A DNA stretch of 64,000 bases, taken from Thermoplasmata archaeon. GTDB taxonomy: Archaea > Thermoplasmatota > Thermoplasmata > Lutacidiplasmatales > UBA184. A program made the position numbers and the translations under genes. The notes beneath the pieces are model-generated. The model saw nothing but the letters and a program-made list of their open reading frames with translations. It ran no database searches and had not been told where the DNA came from. The stretch is from positions 1 to 64,000 of the forward strand of contig DATKQS010000023.1 in assembly GCA_035532555.1 (NCBI GenBank), read 5' to 3'. Position 1 is the stretch's first letter, and every line of letters starts with the position of its first letter. Below, in pieces: positions 7,137-37,914 of the stretch.

Positions 7137-10100
7137 TCAGCTCGGGGGCCGCCGGCGCCGCCGTGTGAGCAGGATTGCGGCGATGATTGCGATCGCGATC
7201 ACGGCCCCGACGAGCACCAGGACCTCGATGATCCACCCGGGGAAGGAGGTCGTCCCCGAACCCGGGGCCGAGAACTGGATCGGTTGACTGACGTTCGATC
7301 CCGCGACCGTCACCGATCCCGACGGCGGAGCGACGTGGTAGGTGGCGTTCGTCCCGGCGGTGAATAGGTACGTTCCGTTCGTTGCGAGGAAGCTGATGGT
7401 CGAAGTGATGGACGTGTAGTTCGCCCCGCCGGTGAAGTTCACGAACCAGCCGGTGCCGACCGCGAGTCCCGCGGCTTCGAACGATACGGTGTACCTCTCG
7501 AGGGAGAAGGTGATGTTGACCGCGACGGAATCACCGGCCACGGTGACCGATCCCGCGCCCGGGCGGGGGGCCCACTCGCTGAGCGCGGCGCGCACGCGGA
7601 ACGAGTACGTCCCGTTGATGACGTGGAGCGTGATCTCGGGCTGGCCCGTGGTGACGTTCTGCCCGCTCCCGAGGACGACCGTCCACCCGATCCCAGAGGG
7701 TAAGCCGGTCTCGGAGAACACGATCGATCCCGGCAGCGCCTGGAAGGGCACGCCGATGACCTGAGGGGCCCCGTCCATGGTGACGGTCCCGCTCGCCCGT
7801 ACCGGTTCCCAGTGCGGATCCCCCGAGGAGATGTTGTACTCGAACGTGCCCGACGGCAGCGGGACGCTGATGGTCGGCGTGGTGGAGGAGTAGCTTCCTC
7901 CGTGGCTGATGTTCACGAACCACAACGTACCGGAGGGCAATCCACCCGCCGTGAAGTTCGCGAGATATTGTGCCGACGGCTCGTACGACAGGACGCCTTG
8001 GATCGAGCTTCCCGCCGAGATCCCCAGGGTCCAGCCGCCCGAGGACCCGCTCGTCCACGCGAGATTCTCCGCGTTCTCTCCGGTCTGGTCGATCGACTCG
8101 TAGAACGAGCGGGTGCTGGCGGTCTCGAACGTCGAGCTGCCGTACGGAAGGATCTTGGCCACCATCGAGCCGGCCGTCGGGGCCGTGAACTGCCCGAGGC
8201 CCCCGGTCGGCCCTCCGACGAGGCCGAACTGCGGTGATAGGCCGCCGGGGATGGGGTTGCCCGGGAACGGCCCGTTCTCATGCTCGGTGCCCTGCCAGGA
8301 GTAGTTGTACCAGAGGCTCCCGATGATGTACGACGCCCCCGGCACCGGCAAGGAGAGCTCGTGCGAGCCCACGAAGTACTCGATGCTCTGGTTGTTGAAG
8401 CCAACGCCGGGATTGAGCAGCGTACGAAGATCGAACGTGGCCGGTAACGGCATCACCTGACCGACGAGCGGGAAGTTGTACTCGTAGATCACTAGCGAAT
8501 AGTACAGGCCGTAGAACGGATACGCGATCCAGCCCGAGTAGTTCATCGCCCAGCCGCTGGCCGTCCAGTTGATGTAGATCACGTTCTGGATCCAGTAGAT
8601 TGGCGCGCCGAGACTGTTCGCGATGAACAGGTTCTGCTGGATCGAGGCGTTGAAGACCGACTGGGTCCCGTGCGAGGTGACCGCAAGACCGTGGAGCGTG
8701 AAGTTGTTCTCGACTCCCGAGAGTCGCCCGTTCACGCCGGCGGATGCGACCGCGAGGAAGTACATCGTGTAGTTGTACGCGTCGAGGGATCCCCAGCCGG
8801 TGACGAGGTCGTAGCCCGGCCCCGCGGCATAGTAGTGGTTGGAGCCATTGACCGTGTCCGAGAGCGGTAGCGTGGGAAGCGGCGAGGTGTAGCGCGACCC
8901 GTTCAAGTATCCGGTCGTCGGAGTATGGACGAGCGGCGCGTACTCCTCGTCCGCGAGCTGGTAGAGCTTCGGCTGCAGGAAGCCGAGCCAGGACTCGTGC
9001 TGTGCGCCGAGCACATGATCGATCTCCGCGATCACCCCAGCTTCGACCGGGCAGGCGACGCTCGTCCCGGTCCCCTCGCCATAGGACATGCCGGTCAACG
9101 AGGCGTTCGTTGCGTTGTACCGGTAGCCGATGTAGGTGATCGTCAACAGCACCCTCGCCGCGATCGCAGCGATATCCGGCACCCCGCGGCCAAGGTCGTG
9201 GATCAGCGCGTTCGCCGAGCTCGACAACTGCCAGGAGGGCTCGGCGTAGAATGGGCTGATCCCGCTTGTCGTTCCCATCTGCTCGGAGGGGACGTTCCAC
9301 ACCACGCTCGAGTTGATCTGGAGCGTCAGCGGATTCAGGGTGATCGCCGTACCTCCGACGGCCAGTACCCCGTAGGTATCCGTCGCGAGGGAGGACGGGA
9401 AGGTGGTGTTCACGCTCGGGGGGTTGCCCACCTGCCATGGGCTGTTCGGGTAGTCGCCGGAGTCCCCCGCGGAGGCGAGGACCGTGATGCCGCGCGCCGT
9501 GGCCTCCTCCACGTACTGGTTCCACTCGGAGTGGACGGCATCGAGATCGCCCCAGGAGTTCGAGATCACCGAGACCCGCGCGAGCGCCGGGTAGCTCGCA
9601 TTCGGGTTGAGGATGAGCGCGAAGGCGGCGTCGAGCTCGGGATACGTCGGGGTCGTTCCGTACACGTCGAAGACGGTGGCTCCCGGAGCGAGCGAGCCGG
9701 CCATCTCCATGTCGAGAGTGTTCTCGATGTTCGCTCCCGTCGTGTCGTAGGACGCGAGCGGCCCCGACGGCGTCGCTCCTCCCACGGGCACACCGATGGC
9801 GACCGCGTGGGGCTGACCCGGCGGTGAGGTCTGGTTGAAGTAGGCCTGGACGTCCGACGGGACGAACGCGCCCACCGGCTGGCCCGGGCTCAGCTCCCCG
9901 TACGGGGTCGAGATGGGCGTCGAGCCGTTGTAGTATCCTTGCCACAGGATCGTTGCGATCACGGCATTGGTCGGATAGCCAGCCTCGAGGAAGAGAGACT
10001 GCTCGTCGTACGCGACCTGGAGGTCGGGACCGTACTGGTACTGCAAGCCGTGGATCTCAGCCGGGGGAAGGTAGCCGGAGGGGTTGGCCGAGCGGATCGC

Positions 10101-10814
10101 CGGGACCGCGGGGGGAGAGTGGGTCATCGGAACCGCTCCGGGGCCAGCAGAGGTGGATGCCCTCGCGAAGGAGCTGAGACCCACGACCGCCGATACGGCC
10201 GGGGCGAGCTCCGAGGGAAGCTCGACCGCGGTGGCCGGGGCGTAGTAGGCCCGTCCGGTGAGGCTCCACTCCTTGACCGTCGTGTGGAACATCCGGTCCA
10301 CCGAGGACGGGGATGCCTCGAAGGAGATCGTGACCCGGTCGCTGAAGGTGTGCATACCGCGAGCTCCGAGCGCTTCGAAGTACGCTACCGCGGCCGCGTA
10401 CGTGCCCGGCGAAGGAGCGAACGCCTCGTCGAACTGGCTTGCCGTGAGGTAATGCTGGAACTCCGGAGCAGAGGGATCGCTCAGAGCCCGAAGCAGGCGG
10501 GTGAGTTCGCTCGTGTTGGAGAATCCGAGGGTGACCACGACGGGCAACTCGGCGGGGAGCGCACGACCGGTCGCCACCGCGCCCGCGAGCCGGTATCCCG
10601 CTTCGGAGTAACTGGTCGGGATGTACGTCTCGTTGACCAGGGCAGAGGGCAGCGGCACGGCCCCACCCGGTCCGCCCGCTATCACCGAGGGCCCGCGTTC
10701 CCCGACGAGCCCGGCGGCGAGCGGGCTCGCAAGGAGCACCGCGATCGCGAGCGCGGGCCCGATCCGGCGGAACGCGCGCGCCTCTCTCGAGCTCCGCGCG
10801 ACGGTCCGGTGCAT
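7137..10814 (-). CDS. Secreted, membrane-anchored S53 (sedolisin/kumamolisin) peptidase
   Basis: 1225 residues. A signal segment is at about 18-37 (GPALAIAVLLASPLAAGLVG). A pro-kumamolisin activation domain follows at about 85-230, then the S53 catalytic domain with E364 and D368 (IENTLDMEMAGS), the oxyanion D451 (SAGDSGDYP) and the nucleophile S585 (GTGTSVACP). All four active-site residues are in place. The rest is a large beta-rich region with at least three copies of an Ig-like repeat of the type GLPSGxxWxV, then a C-terminal membrane helix (WIIEVLVLVGAVIAIAIIAA) and a basic tail. S53 enzymes work at acid pH. The architecture predicts a surface-tethered protease digesting external protein. 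Confidence 0.92.
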   Translation of the reverse strand: MHRTVARSSREARAFRRIGPALAIAVLLASPLAAGLVGERGPSVIAGGPGGAVPLPSALVNETYIPTSYSEAGYRLAGAVATGRALPAELPVVVTLGFSNTSELTRLLRALSDPSAPEFQHYLTASQFDEAFAPSPGTYAAAVAYFEALGARGMHTFSDRVTISFEASPSSVDRMFHTTVKEWSLTGRAYYAPATAVELPSELAPAVSAVVGLSSFARASTSAGPGAVPMTHSPPAVPAIRSANPSGYLPPAEIHGLQYQYGPDLQVAYDEQSLFLEAGYPTNAVIATILWQGYYNGSTPISTPYGELSPGQPVGAFVPSDVQAYFNQTSPPGQPHAVAIGVPVGGATPSGPLASYDTTGANIENTLDMEMAGSLAPGATVFDVYGTTPTYPELDAAFALILNPNASYPALARVSVISNSWGDLDAVHSEWNQYVEEATARGITVLASAGDSGDYPNSPWQVGNPPSVNTTFPSSLATDTYGVLAVGGTAITLNPLTLQINSSVVWNVPSEQMGTTSGISPFYAEPSWQLSSSANALIHDLGRGVPDIAAIAARVLLTITYIGYRYNATNASLTGMSYGEGTGTSVACPVEAGVIAEIDHVLGAQHESWLGFLQPKLYQLADEEYAPLVHTPTTGYLNGSRYTSPLPTLPLSDTVNGSNHYYAAGPGYDLVTGWGSLDAYNYTMYFLAVASAGVNGRLSGVENNFTLHGLAVTSHGTQSVFNASIQQNLFIANSLGAPIYWIQNVIYINWTASGWAMNYSGWIAYPFYGLYYSLVIYEYNFPLVGQVMPLPATFDLRTLLNPGVGFNNQSIEYFVGSHELSLPVPGASYIIGSLWYNYSWQGTEHENGPFPGNPIPGGLSPQFGLVGGPTGGLGQFTAPTAGSMVAKILPYGSSTFETASTRSFYESIDQTGENAENLAWTSGSSGGWTLGISAGSSIQGVLSYEPSAQYLANFTAGGLPSGTLWFVNISHGGSYSSTTPTISVPLPSGTFEYNISSGDPHWEPVRASGTVTMDGAPQVIGVPFQALPGSIVFSETGLPSGIGWTVVLGSGQNVTTGQPEITLHVINGTYSFRVRAALSEWAPRPGAGSVTVAGDSVAVNITFSLERYTVSFEAAGLAVGTGWFVNFTGGANYTSITSTISFLATNGTYLFTAGTNATYHVAPPSGSVTVAGSNVSQPIQFSAPGSGTTSFPGWIIEVLVLVGAVIAIAIIAAILLTRRRRRPPS

Positions 10815-15016: not shown

Positions 15017-16081
15017 CTACGGCCGAATGCGCTCGAGCGACAGGAAGCGGACCTCGTCGTTCGGCCGCACGGCTGCGAGCAGGTACTCCTTGCGGACCCC
15101 CTGCGCCACGCGGATCCCGCCGGAGACCTCGGGCCAGGAACTGATGTGCTTGTCCCGCACCGCGCGCAGGAGGTAGCGCGCGTGCGAATGCTCCGGGCTG
15201 CGCGGATAGGCGCGGAAGTGGGCTCCATACTTGAATCCGGTCTTGACCACGAGCCCGCGTCCCCGCAAGGCGGTGTACGCGGCAAGCCGCTCGTCGAAAT
15301 GCGGATCGAGGCGCCGGGCGTGCCGGTGGAGGCGCTCTCGGGAGACCGCACGGCGGCTGGCCCCGTCGCGCAGCAGGATCTGCCCGCTGTCGGCGAGGTA
15401 GGCCCCCTCGATCAGGCTGAGCTCGAGCCGATCGCCCAGCTTGCTTCCGTAGGCGAGGGAGCGCCCCAGCTCGTCCACGGCCCGCTCGTCGTACACCACC
15501 AGGCGATCGTGGGAGAGCCACGCCTCCGCCGGCGTGCCGAGACGGCGAGCGGGAAGGGCTCCGCGAGGCGACGGCCGTCGTACGCGATAGTACGTCAGGT
15601 CCGACTCCTCGTCGACGACCCCGAGGAGAAGGGTCTTCTTCGCGCTCTGAGCGCGCTCCGCGAGCTCGAAGAGGTGCGCCAGATCGAACGGGGCGCGCTC
15701 GCTGATCGCCTCGACCCAGAACCGGGAGGGCGTCTTGTTCAAGACTCCGCCGCGCGGAAGGACGGTGAAGGCGACCGGAGGAGGGCTCGCCCGAACGACG
15801 TAGCCCCGCTGGCGGAGGTCCCGGTAGACCAGGTAGCGAACCCCGAAGACCGGATCGTGGCGCGCGGAACGACGGAACACCTCGGGCCACGGAACGGGCC
15901 GGGCGCGGGCGTCGACCCCCACGAGCCGGCCCATCTCGGCGAGGTAGACGCTGTCGTAGCGGTCGAGCCCGAGGCCCCCGTTCGAGTCCGGCGTTCCGAA
16001 GTACCCGCGTCCGTAAGTGGCGCTCGCTTCGGCCGGGTCCGCGATCCGGATCGTCCCGTCCGCCGCGACCCGGCCCGTCAC
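15017..16081 (-). CDS. endA: tRNA-splicing endonuclease, fused alpha2-type
   Basis: 354 residues, about twice the length of the single-repeat enzyme, so this is the fused form with a degenerate first half and an active second half. The catalytic triad is Y285 (FKYGAHFRAY), H300 (EHSHARYLL) and K331 (GVRKEYLLA). The enzyme cuts bulge-helix-bulge structures in precursor tRNA and rRNA. The start at 16081 overlaps the pyrE stop by ATGA. Its likely client in this window is the tRNA-Glu gene at 35.3 kb, whose insertion lies at an unusual place for this class of enzyme. Confidence 0.92.
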   Translation of the reverse strand: MTGRVAADGTIRIADPAEASATYGRGYFGTPDSNGGLGLDRYDSVYLAEMGRLVGVDARARPVPWPEVFRRSARHDPVFGVRYLVYRDLRQRGYVVRASPPPVAFTVLPRGGVLNKTPSRFWVEAISERAPFDLAHLFELAERAQSAKKTLLLGVVDEESDLTYYRVRRPSPRGALPARRLGTPAEAWLSHDRLVVYDERAVDELGRSLAYGSKLGDRLELSLIEGAYLADSGQILLRDGASRRAVSRERLHRHARRLDPHFDERLAAYTALRGRGLVVKTGFKYGAHFRAYPRSPEHSHARYLLRAVRDKHISSWPEVSGGIRVAQGVRKEYLLAAVRPNDEVRFLSLERIRP

Positions 16082-35313: not shown

Positions 35314-35419
35314 TGGTGCTCCCGGCGGGAGTTTCCCCGCCCGGCGGCTGGCCGAGCGGATTTGAACCCGCGTCAGGGGCTCGAGAGGCCCCTATCCTTG
35401 ACCACTAGACTACGGGAGC
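35314..35419 (-). tRNA. tRNA-Glu (anticodon CTC) with a ~30-nt insertion in the T arm
   Basis: On the minus strand the 5' acceptor GCTCCCG (from 35419) pairs exactly with CGGGAGC (35324-35318), followed by A and an encoded CCA (35316-35314). The D arm GTCTAGTGGTCAAGGAT is typical of tRNA-Glu. The anticodon arm is GGGGC-CTCTCGA-GCCCC, giving CTC. The T arm starts GCGGG-TTCAAAT, but its partner CCCGC comes only after 30 extra bases that fold into a 9-bp hairpin. Removing them leaves a standard 76-nt tRNA with CCA. The extra piece is best explained as an intron near position 59-61. The exact splice points are ambiguous, and a perfect bulge-helix-bulge is not evident. Confidence 0.8.
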
Positions 35420-35651: not shown

Positions 35652-36884
35652 TCATCGTGCTACCTCCGAATCCCGTGGGGGTTCCTGTCTCTTCGACCGA
35701 ACTCGCCGCCCCTTGCGGTGCGGTGGAGGTACGATCTCCACAGGCGTGGATTCCCCGGTGCCCCCGGGTACTTGGGCGAGTGCGCGAGCCAAGATGTTCT
35801 TAGCCGCGTTCAGGTCTCGATCGAGACGAAGCCCGCACGGACACGAGTACGTGCGGTCCTGGAGAGGGAGGGGAGGGTCGGCGAGACGGCCGCATTTCGA
35901 GCAGGTCTGGGTCGTCCCCTTCGCGGGGACCTCGGCATACCGACCCGACCTACGGGCCTCCTTATACTTCGACATCTGCCGGAGCATCCCCCATCCGGCG
36001 TCGGAGATCGACTTCGACAGGTGGCCGTTCCCAAGCATCGACGGGACCGAAAGGTCCTCGAAGGCGATCAGGTCGTGGTGCTTCACCCACCCCGTCGTGG
36101 TCTTGTGGGCAAAGTCTCTCCGCTGGTCGCGGACCTTCGCGTGACACCGGACAACCCGGAGCTTCGCTTTCTCCCGGTTGTGGGAACCCTTCTTGCGGCG
36201 CGAGACGACCCGCTGGGCACGACCAAGGCGTTTCTCCGACCGGCGGAGGAACCTCGGCGGCATGGCCATCTCTCCTGTCGATAGTGTGGCAAGGTGGGAG
36301 AGGCCCAGATCCACGCCCACCGGGCTCGTGGTGGGAGCATCCGACGGAGGGGCGGGGTCGGCCACCTCTACCGTGAGTACGGCGAACCATCGGTCTCCCT
36401 CGCGCTTCACGGTGCAGGTCTTAACTCGGCCCTCGGGAGGTTCTCGGGAGACCTTCACCGGCAGGTCCCCCAGCATGGCGAGATGCAGACGTCGGGTGCC
36501 GTTCCTCCCCGACACGAGAGCGGCGGAGCCGTTGGCGTCGGGGTAGGTGAGGGAGATGACCTCCCGCTTGAATCGCGGGAAACCGGGATGGCCGCCCTCT
36601 TTCACGCGCCGGAAGAAGTGCTTGAACCCGTCGTCGAGGCGGGCGAGGGTCTCTTGGGCGACATGGCCGTAGACACGCCCGACCCCTTCCTGGTCGTAGG
36701 CTCGCCACCGCGCGAGGTCCCGGCATTGGCGGACGTAGGAGAGGGACTTCTTCTCCTTCCGCCACGCGTCGCACCGTTGTTCGATGGCGTGGTTCCACAG
36801 GAAGCGCAGTTCATCGAACTGACGGAGGAGTTCCCTCTCCTGATTCGGGAACGGGTAGAGGCGATACTTGCAGGGGAGATACAT
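35652..36884 (-). CDS. tnpB: TnpB, RNA-guided nuclease of the IS200/605-type element
   Basis: 410 residues from the ATG at 36882-36884 (MYLPCKYRLYPFPNQ), the usual TnpB start; the frame is open to 36923. RuvC acids are D192 (GVDLGLSHLAT), E276 (IAFEDLSVPS) and D357 (LDRDLNAAKN), and the zinc finger CSKCG...CPCG is complete. All key residues are present. It differs clearly from the IS607 TnpB in this window, so the two elements arrived separately. It sits inside a GNAT gene in the same orientation. Confidence 0.9.
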   Translation of the reverse strand: MYLPCKYRLYPFPNQERELLRQFDELRFLWNHAIEQRCDAWRKEKKSLSYVRQCRDLARWRAYDQEGVGRVYGHVAQETLARLDDGFKHFFRRVKEGGHPGFPRFKREVISLTYPDANGSAALVSGRNGTRRLHLAMLGDLPVKVSREPPEGRVKTCTVKREGDRWFAVLTVEVADPAPPSDAPTTSPVGVDLGLSHLATLSTGEMAMPPRFLRRSEKRLGRAQRVVSRRKKGSHNREKAKLRVVRCHAKVRDQRRDFAHKTTTGWVKHHDLIAFEDLSVPSMLGNGHLSKSISDAGWGMLRQMSKYKEARRSGRYAEVPAKGTTQTCSKCGRLADPPLPLQDRTYSCPCGLRLDRDLNAAKNILARALAQVPGGTGESTPVEIVPPPHRKGRRVRSKRQEPPRDSEVAR

Positions 36885-37914
36885 CTTCGGAGGTAGCACT
36901 TCCCCCACATTCCCGAAGCGCATAAGGGGCCCGCTGACCCCCCTACAAGTAGGGGGGCTTGCGCTCGCCCTTCATTCGTCACGTTGAGCCGAAGCGCGGG
37001 AGCGGACCGGCTCCGTACCGATGCAAGGCTGGCCGCGATCAGCGCACCAGCGATTCCCTGACCTCGCTGGGCCGGGTCCACCATGACGCCCGCGAGGAGC
37101 GGATGGCCTTCCATCGCCACGAGCAACGTGGCCCCGACGATCCGTCCATCGCGCACCGCGACGAACGAGTCCTCCGGCAGGAAGGGGCCCCAGTCCCCTC
37201 CGAGGAGCTTCGCCATCCCACGCTCCGAATCGCGACCGGGATCCGGGTCCTCCATGAACAGATACCGATCGAATCGCCCCGAGTACGCGAGTCGGTGGAG
37301 CACCGCCAGCTCCGCCGCATCCTCGAGGTGCACCCGCCGAGCGCTGAGGCCGGTCTTCCGGGAAGCGGAAGGAAGAGGCGCTCCATCCGGGAACTCCATC
37401 TCGGTCCGCGAGAAGCGGCGGAACCCGAGCGGCTCCATCATCCCCGCCTGCTGCGCTGGTTCGAGCCCGAGGAGATCTCCCGTGGAGAACGCGACGGGGC
37501 CGTCCCTTGGGGACTTGTCGATGATCCGCCGGAGAAACTCGCGATACGCCGCCGGGGTTCGCCGGCCCGAACGGAGATAGAGCAGGCTGACCCGGCGGGC
37601 GGGTAGGGGGATCCGGCTCCACGTCGCGATCCCGATCAACTCGGGACCATCGACGGCGAGCACGCCACGCTCTCTCCGCTGTCGAGCGCTTGGCGCATTC
37701 GTACCGTCCATTCCTCCTCCGCGAACCGGCCACCCGCGATCTCCGCGAGGGCCTCTTGGCACAGCTGCCAGCCTTCGCCGGGTCGCTGGGAGAGCGGGAT
37801 CGTCTCGAGCATCGGGGCCGTCGGACCTCCTGCGTCGAATAAAATAAACGGCTAACGGGGTTGCCGCGCGCTCTCCGAAGGCCCTAAGTGCGCTCTCGAG
37901 CTTGGTTCAGGAAG

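Follow-up and report, generated by a model that had tools for sequence, protein, structure and literature searches.

PMC4090602, citing Marck & Grosjean 2003 and Sugahara 2008, lists introns at position 59/60 of tRNA genes, known mainly from Crenarchaeota and Nanoarchaeota. T-arm introns have also been reported in Ca. Caldiarchaeum subterraneum (PMC3293823). Very intron-rich tRNA sets are a feature of the Thermoproteales and of soil Asgard archaea (PMC8450103, PMC11291895). According to reviews, alpha4 and alpha2 splicing endonucleases cut canonical bulge-helix-bulge (BHB) motifs only, and broad specificity is tied to (alpha-beta)2 and epsilon2 enzymes that carry a CSL or ASL loop (PMC4033280, PMC6379350, PMC12397907). 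When given full-length pre-tRNA, however, the alpha'2 enzyme of A. fulgidus can cleave a BHL motif (PMC6379350), and BHL cleavage has been credited to homodimers by another group (PMC8707768).

The locus described here lies in a 64,000-nucleotide stretch of DNA (the window) from an uncultured soil-type Thermoplasmata archaeon near Candidatus Lutacidiplasma. Its intron shares the site, the BHB-type layout and the short length of 59/60 introns in other archaea, but here the host is a member of the Thermoplasmata with a fused alpha'2 enzyme that lacks a specificity loop, the intron set is dominated by a single site, and exon base 57 and the intron follow a pairing rule that includes A·G. Caldiarchaeum and the soil Asgard archaea likewise have numerous noncanonical introns per genome, but they belong to other phyla and their introns occupy several sites. 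Aeropyrum pernix (alpha-beta enzyme) and ARMAN-2 (epsilon2) also have genomes rich in noncanonical introns, whereas the CSL/ASL loop of their endonucleases is absent here. The Lutacidiplasmatales genome paper (PMC9287336) makes no mention of introns in its main text, and the literature search yielded no publication on T-loop introns in Thermoplasmatota, though individual examples may be listed in sequence databases, GtRNAdb among them. The 59/60 site itself is known; its abundance alongside a loop-less alpha'2 enzyme appears to be undescribed.

The interrupted tRNA-Glu(CUC) gene

Direct reading of the minus strand at window positions 35317-35419 gives a tRNA-Glu(CUC) gene whose T loop is split at 59/60 by a 30-nt insertion. 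The acceptor stem is GCTCCCG/CGGGAGC, the D arm GTCT..GGAT, the anticodon arm GGGGC-CTCTCGA-GCCCC and the T stem GCGGG/CCCGC. Exon 1 (positions 1-59; 35361..35419), which contains the anticodon CUC (35385-35383), is also recognised by ARAGORN and the Rfam tRNA model, while exon 2 (positions 60-73; 35317..35330) is delimited by direct reading and ortholog conservation and ends with the discriminator A at 35317. Removal of the 30 nt (35331..35360) leaves a standard tRNA in which every arm pairs and the T loop becomes TTCAAAT. As originally predicted, the insertion contains a 9-bp hairpin, CCGCTCGGC/GCCGGGCGG, with the loop CAGCC (35337..35359), and the predicted fold of the pre-tRNA was better than that of 200/200 shuffles (z -3.63). 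The CCA that follows the discriminator (35314-35316), which had been taken for a standard encoded part of the gene, is shared by only 3 of 26 orthologs and is probably there by chance rather than as a conserved encoded CCA.

With a 60-base exon probe, orthologs of at least 95% identity were detected in 49 of 61 genomes sampled from the genus, a set in which many assemblies are incomplete. The intron is kept in all 29 ortholog loci examined: 27 copies are complete and measure 27-32 nt, and two are truncated where the contig ends, past the intron start. Only two versions of the exons occur among the orthologs, differing by one compensatory pair in the anticodon stem. The arms of the intron hairpin have changed together, pairing at 92% within a sequence compared with 66% between orthologs, a value that none of 2000 permutations reached.

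These observations bear on whether the gene is alive. ARAGORN calls a tRNA-Glu(ctc) with a truncated 3' part, and the Rfam match covers model positions 8-63 only, at 31.8 bits. Low scores and truncation by standard finders are what a dead or decaying gene might show, but here the truncated or misplaced 3' part in both calls is explained by the 30-nt interruption of the T loop. Exons frozen across the genus and a covarying hairpin argue against decay, as does the status of the gene as the only one of its kind: the original prediction had named a second intact tRNA-Glu(CUC), combined with a lack of expression of this locus, as counter-evidence, and no second gene was found in this 96%-complete genome. 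GAG also outnumbers GAA by 131:31 in six ORFs, although tRNA-Glu(UUC) may serve as an additional reader of GAG. Conservation, sole-copy status and codon use make decay extremely improbable and, for practical purposes, rule out a dead gene. The behaviour of the two programs has a wider consequence, in that T-loop-intron genes are truncated or under-scored and the tRNA sets of such genomes can therefore look incomplete.

An IS200/IS605-type TnpB is encoded on the minus strand about 0.2 kb upstream of the tRNA gene (35652-36923). When the window was searched for att-like repeats of the 3' end of the tRNA gene, no exact second copy was found and inexact ones were not clearly above chance, so there is no sign of an integrated element at this tRNA.

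T-loop introns and the exon-57 rule

The genome (1.6 Mb in 27 contigs, 96% complete) was searched for tRNAs; many matches were weak and these were then read individually. An intron at 59/60 with the same BHB layout interrupts at least 14 of the roughly 45 genes found. In addition to Glu(CUC), these are Asn(GUU), Arg(UCU), Arg(UCG), Gly(UCC), Ser(GCU), Ala(GGC), Ser(GGA), Ser(CGA), Asp(GUC), Gln(CUG), Lys(UUU), His(GUG) and Leu(UAG). The intron-like nature of the insertion, as first proposed, is thus upheld by the sequence itself, 13 sister genes and 29 orthologs. Introns are present in the anticodon loop of the elongator Met, Tyr, Trp and Leu(UAA) genes, and apparent D-arm introns in Lys(UUU) (L031) and Ile(CAU) (L036) on contig C12, Arg(GCG) (L039) and Leu(UAG) (L230) on C6, and Pro(UGG) (L229) on C8; Lys(UUU) and Leu(UAG) combine D-arm and T-loop introns in one gene. 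No tRNA-Ile(GAU) was located among the roughly 45 tRNA genes of this 96%-complete genome. Directly downstream of the elongator tRNA-Met (L020, C9:116462) lies a short fragment resembling a T arm plus acceptor (GGGGGATTCAAATCCCATCGGGAGAC), which could be an integration scar or a tRNA remnant, and a mismatched second tRNA-Gly(GCC)-like copy (L030, C9:149802), close to an intact gene, has the look of a duplicate in decay.

The T-loop introns follow a common plan. On the 5' side the T stem leads into T54-T55-C56-R57, a bulge A58 A59|N and the intron hairpin; on the 3' side an intron tetranucleotide mostly complementary to 54-57 is followed by a bulge NN|Y60 and the T stem. A covariance model built from seven T-loop-intron tRNAs had 95.5% paired cells, with base-pair counts above those of all shuffles and slides. 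Intron loops had been trimmed in its alignment, and the D and variable regions slightly edited, so the analysis was repeated without trimming; it covered 122 introns of this genome and its relatives, from which two false parses, the intron-less tRNAs L005 and L010, had been removed. All four central-helix pairs were present in 67 introns and three of four in 55, and the first six positions of the inner hairpin were 88% paired compared with 40% in letter shuffles. A register shifted by one for hairpin and central helix was considered and rejected: the hairpin was almost unaffected (86% vs 88%), but about one quarter of the central-helix pairs were lost.

The identity of exon base 57 predicts its partner in the intron. 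G57 faces C in 60 of 60 cases, whereas A57 faces G in 53 and U in 9 (Fisher p ~3e-36, a value that overstates independence, as the 122 introns are phylogenetically related). Switches of base 57 together with its partner occur within isotypes, in Gly (L302), Asn (L297) and Arg(UCU) (L237). From sequence, most G57 genes would be able to form a full 4-bp central helix, and most A57 genes carry a single A57·G mismatch. Three G57 genes of this genome were folded: Arg(UCG) and Gly(UCC) gave a strict BHB with the 4-bp helix closed, but Asp did not. A G57 Arg(UCU) from another family likewise folded as a BHB with this helix closed.

In Glu(CUC) the intron tetranucleotide GGAA (35333..35336) is assigned by the 57-partner rule as the 3' strand of the central helix, facing T54-T55-C56-A57. 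The partner of A57 is G, and the helix consequently has three pairs and one mismatch, A57·G. In the nearest-neighbour MFE fold of the gene GGAA is unpaired and the central helix open, forming a 6x6 internal loop. Glu(CUC) is therefore not a strict BHB (two 3-nt bulges with a 4-bp helix between them) but a relaxed one, with register-specific pairing at a known noncanonical site, and the imperfect motif originally suspected was confirmed in this form.

A loop-less endonuclease and its probable substrates

The window also encodes the only splicing endonuclease of the genome (EndA; 15017..16081, minus strand), 19 kb from the tRNA gene, and it is of the fused type first read from its ORF. The 354-residue chain contains two PF01974 matches within one ORF, and catalytic residues in the C-terminal half assign it to the alpha'2 type. 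Y292, H300, K331 and R324 align with Y246, H257, K287 and R280 of A. fulgidus and do not vary across the alignment of the class. In the A. fulgidus chimera 3P1Y the CSL sits between YGS and LSLIE; a Lys-bearing loop of CSL/ASL type before LSLIE in the catalytic unit is absent here, the corresponding segment YGSKLGDRLELSLIE being without the 3P1Y insertion. The enzymes of A. fulgidus and Thermoplasma acidophilum (2GJW, 1RLV, 2OHC) have the same fused two-domain chain without a CSL, the same Y/H/K triad and the same bulge-binding Arg. These two are listed as narrow (PMC6379350), and the monomer model of the present EndA (pLDDT 91) is nearer to the fused subunits of Methanopyrus kandleri (5X89), with A. 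fulgidus 2GJW next. The nearest sequence relatives are from Thermoplasmata MAGs (at most 96% identity), and the Candidatus Lutacidiplasma silvani protein is 61% identical. The ligase RtcB is encoded in the genome, so that the host has both splicing endonuclease and ligase.

The following pathway is proposed. In the Glu(CUC) precursor the T stem would act as the outer helix, T54-T55-C56-A57 opposite GGAA as the central helix with its three pairs and A57·G, and the 9-bp intron hairpin as the inner helix. A homodimer of the fused EndA, tolerating the A·G mismatch, would cut within the two 3-nt bulges, presumably at A58 A59|U and AC|U60, releasing the 30-nt intron, and RtcB would join the exons to give standard tRNA-Glu(CUC). 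Sequence, conservation, covariation and the presence of EndA and RtcB indicate that the gene is almost certainly spliced, and the probability that the insertion is a genuine noncanonical 59/60 intron, cut by EndA and joined by RtcB in the cell, is put at roughly 90%. Against it count the in silico result that Glu(CUC) is not a strict BHB and has an open central helix in its MFE fold, and the narrow specificity reported for enzymes of this class (PMC6379350, PMC4033280), tempered by the BHL cleavage described for A. fulgidus alpha'2.

A stable hairpin kept in all examined orthologs is also what would be expected of a structural arm, and mature tRNAs of the genus might then retain the insertion as an extended T arm. 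This is very unlikely, as the geometry of the splice site is itself conserved, in the 57-partner rule as well as in register-specific pairing, a retained insertion would break up the conserved T loop (elbow) of 14 tRNAs, EndA and RtcB are present in the genome, and 59/60 introns are known from other archaea (PMC4090602).

The original prediction offered relaxed specificity or another partner as ways of cutting an imperfect motif. Removal of a 59/60 intron by EndA sits uneasily with the absence of the loops tied to broad specificity and with the mostly mismatched central helix of A57 precursors, both of which favour a second nuclease or an accessory subunit that confers relaxed specificity. Such an extra factor is very improbable: EndA was the only endonuclease-domain gene found in the 96%-complete genome, leaving no candidate partner of that kind; G57 introns can form full BHBs and otherwise have the same features, which suggests one enzyme for both; and those relatives in the Thermoplasmatota that carry T-loop introns likewise encode a single fused enzyme. 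Each of 14 such genomes from the phylum encodes one fused EndA, and no CSL/ASL-type loop was present in these or in the class relatives; in a fifteenth (G117) no EndA gene was found.

With EndA as the likely sole nuclease, relaxed specificity is called for mainly by the A57·G introns, Glu(CUC) included, and not by the G57 genes with their possible full 4-bp helix. Since a large number of the introns here form full BHBs, if at an unusual site, and BHL cleavage has been reported, the conflict with the specificity rule is real but partial. The broader proposal is finely balanced: that relaxed T-loop BHBs, with a central helix ending in a conserved A57·G mismatch, are routine substrates of a loop-less alpha'2 EndA in this Thermoplasmata lineage, that the intron has co-evolved with base 57, and that broad specificity can be had without a CSL/ASL-type loop. 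A euryarchaeal genus that has T-loop introns in about one third of its tRNA genes (on the count for this genome) and one loop-less fused enzyme constitutes a natural test of the loop rule, for which the exon-57 rule supplies ready substrates with G-C, A-U and A·G.

Spread within the Thermoplasmatota

By model score, T-loop introns are present in 24 of 24 sampled relatives of the genus, and they also occur in several order- and class-level relatives. In a sample of the phylum 46 of 196 genomes had a strong model match, an approximate count in that the cut-off admits an occasional intron-less tRNA. T-arm introns had been described as mainly known from Thermoproteota; their recurrence across Thermoplasmatota shows that they are not essentially confined to that group. 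In one family (f8) many of the sampled genomes carry a single Arg(UCU) T-loop intron that forms a full BHB and measures 22-25 nt in 12 loci, possibly an ancient intron, and in another (f23) T-loop introns are found in Lys(UUU). With regard to the lifestyle of the host, the window also encodes a 1225-aa protein (7137-10814, minus strand) with a pro-kumamolisin activation domain and a subtilase-like domain, which fits an acid-adapted archaeon.
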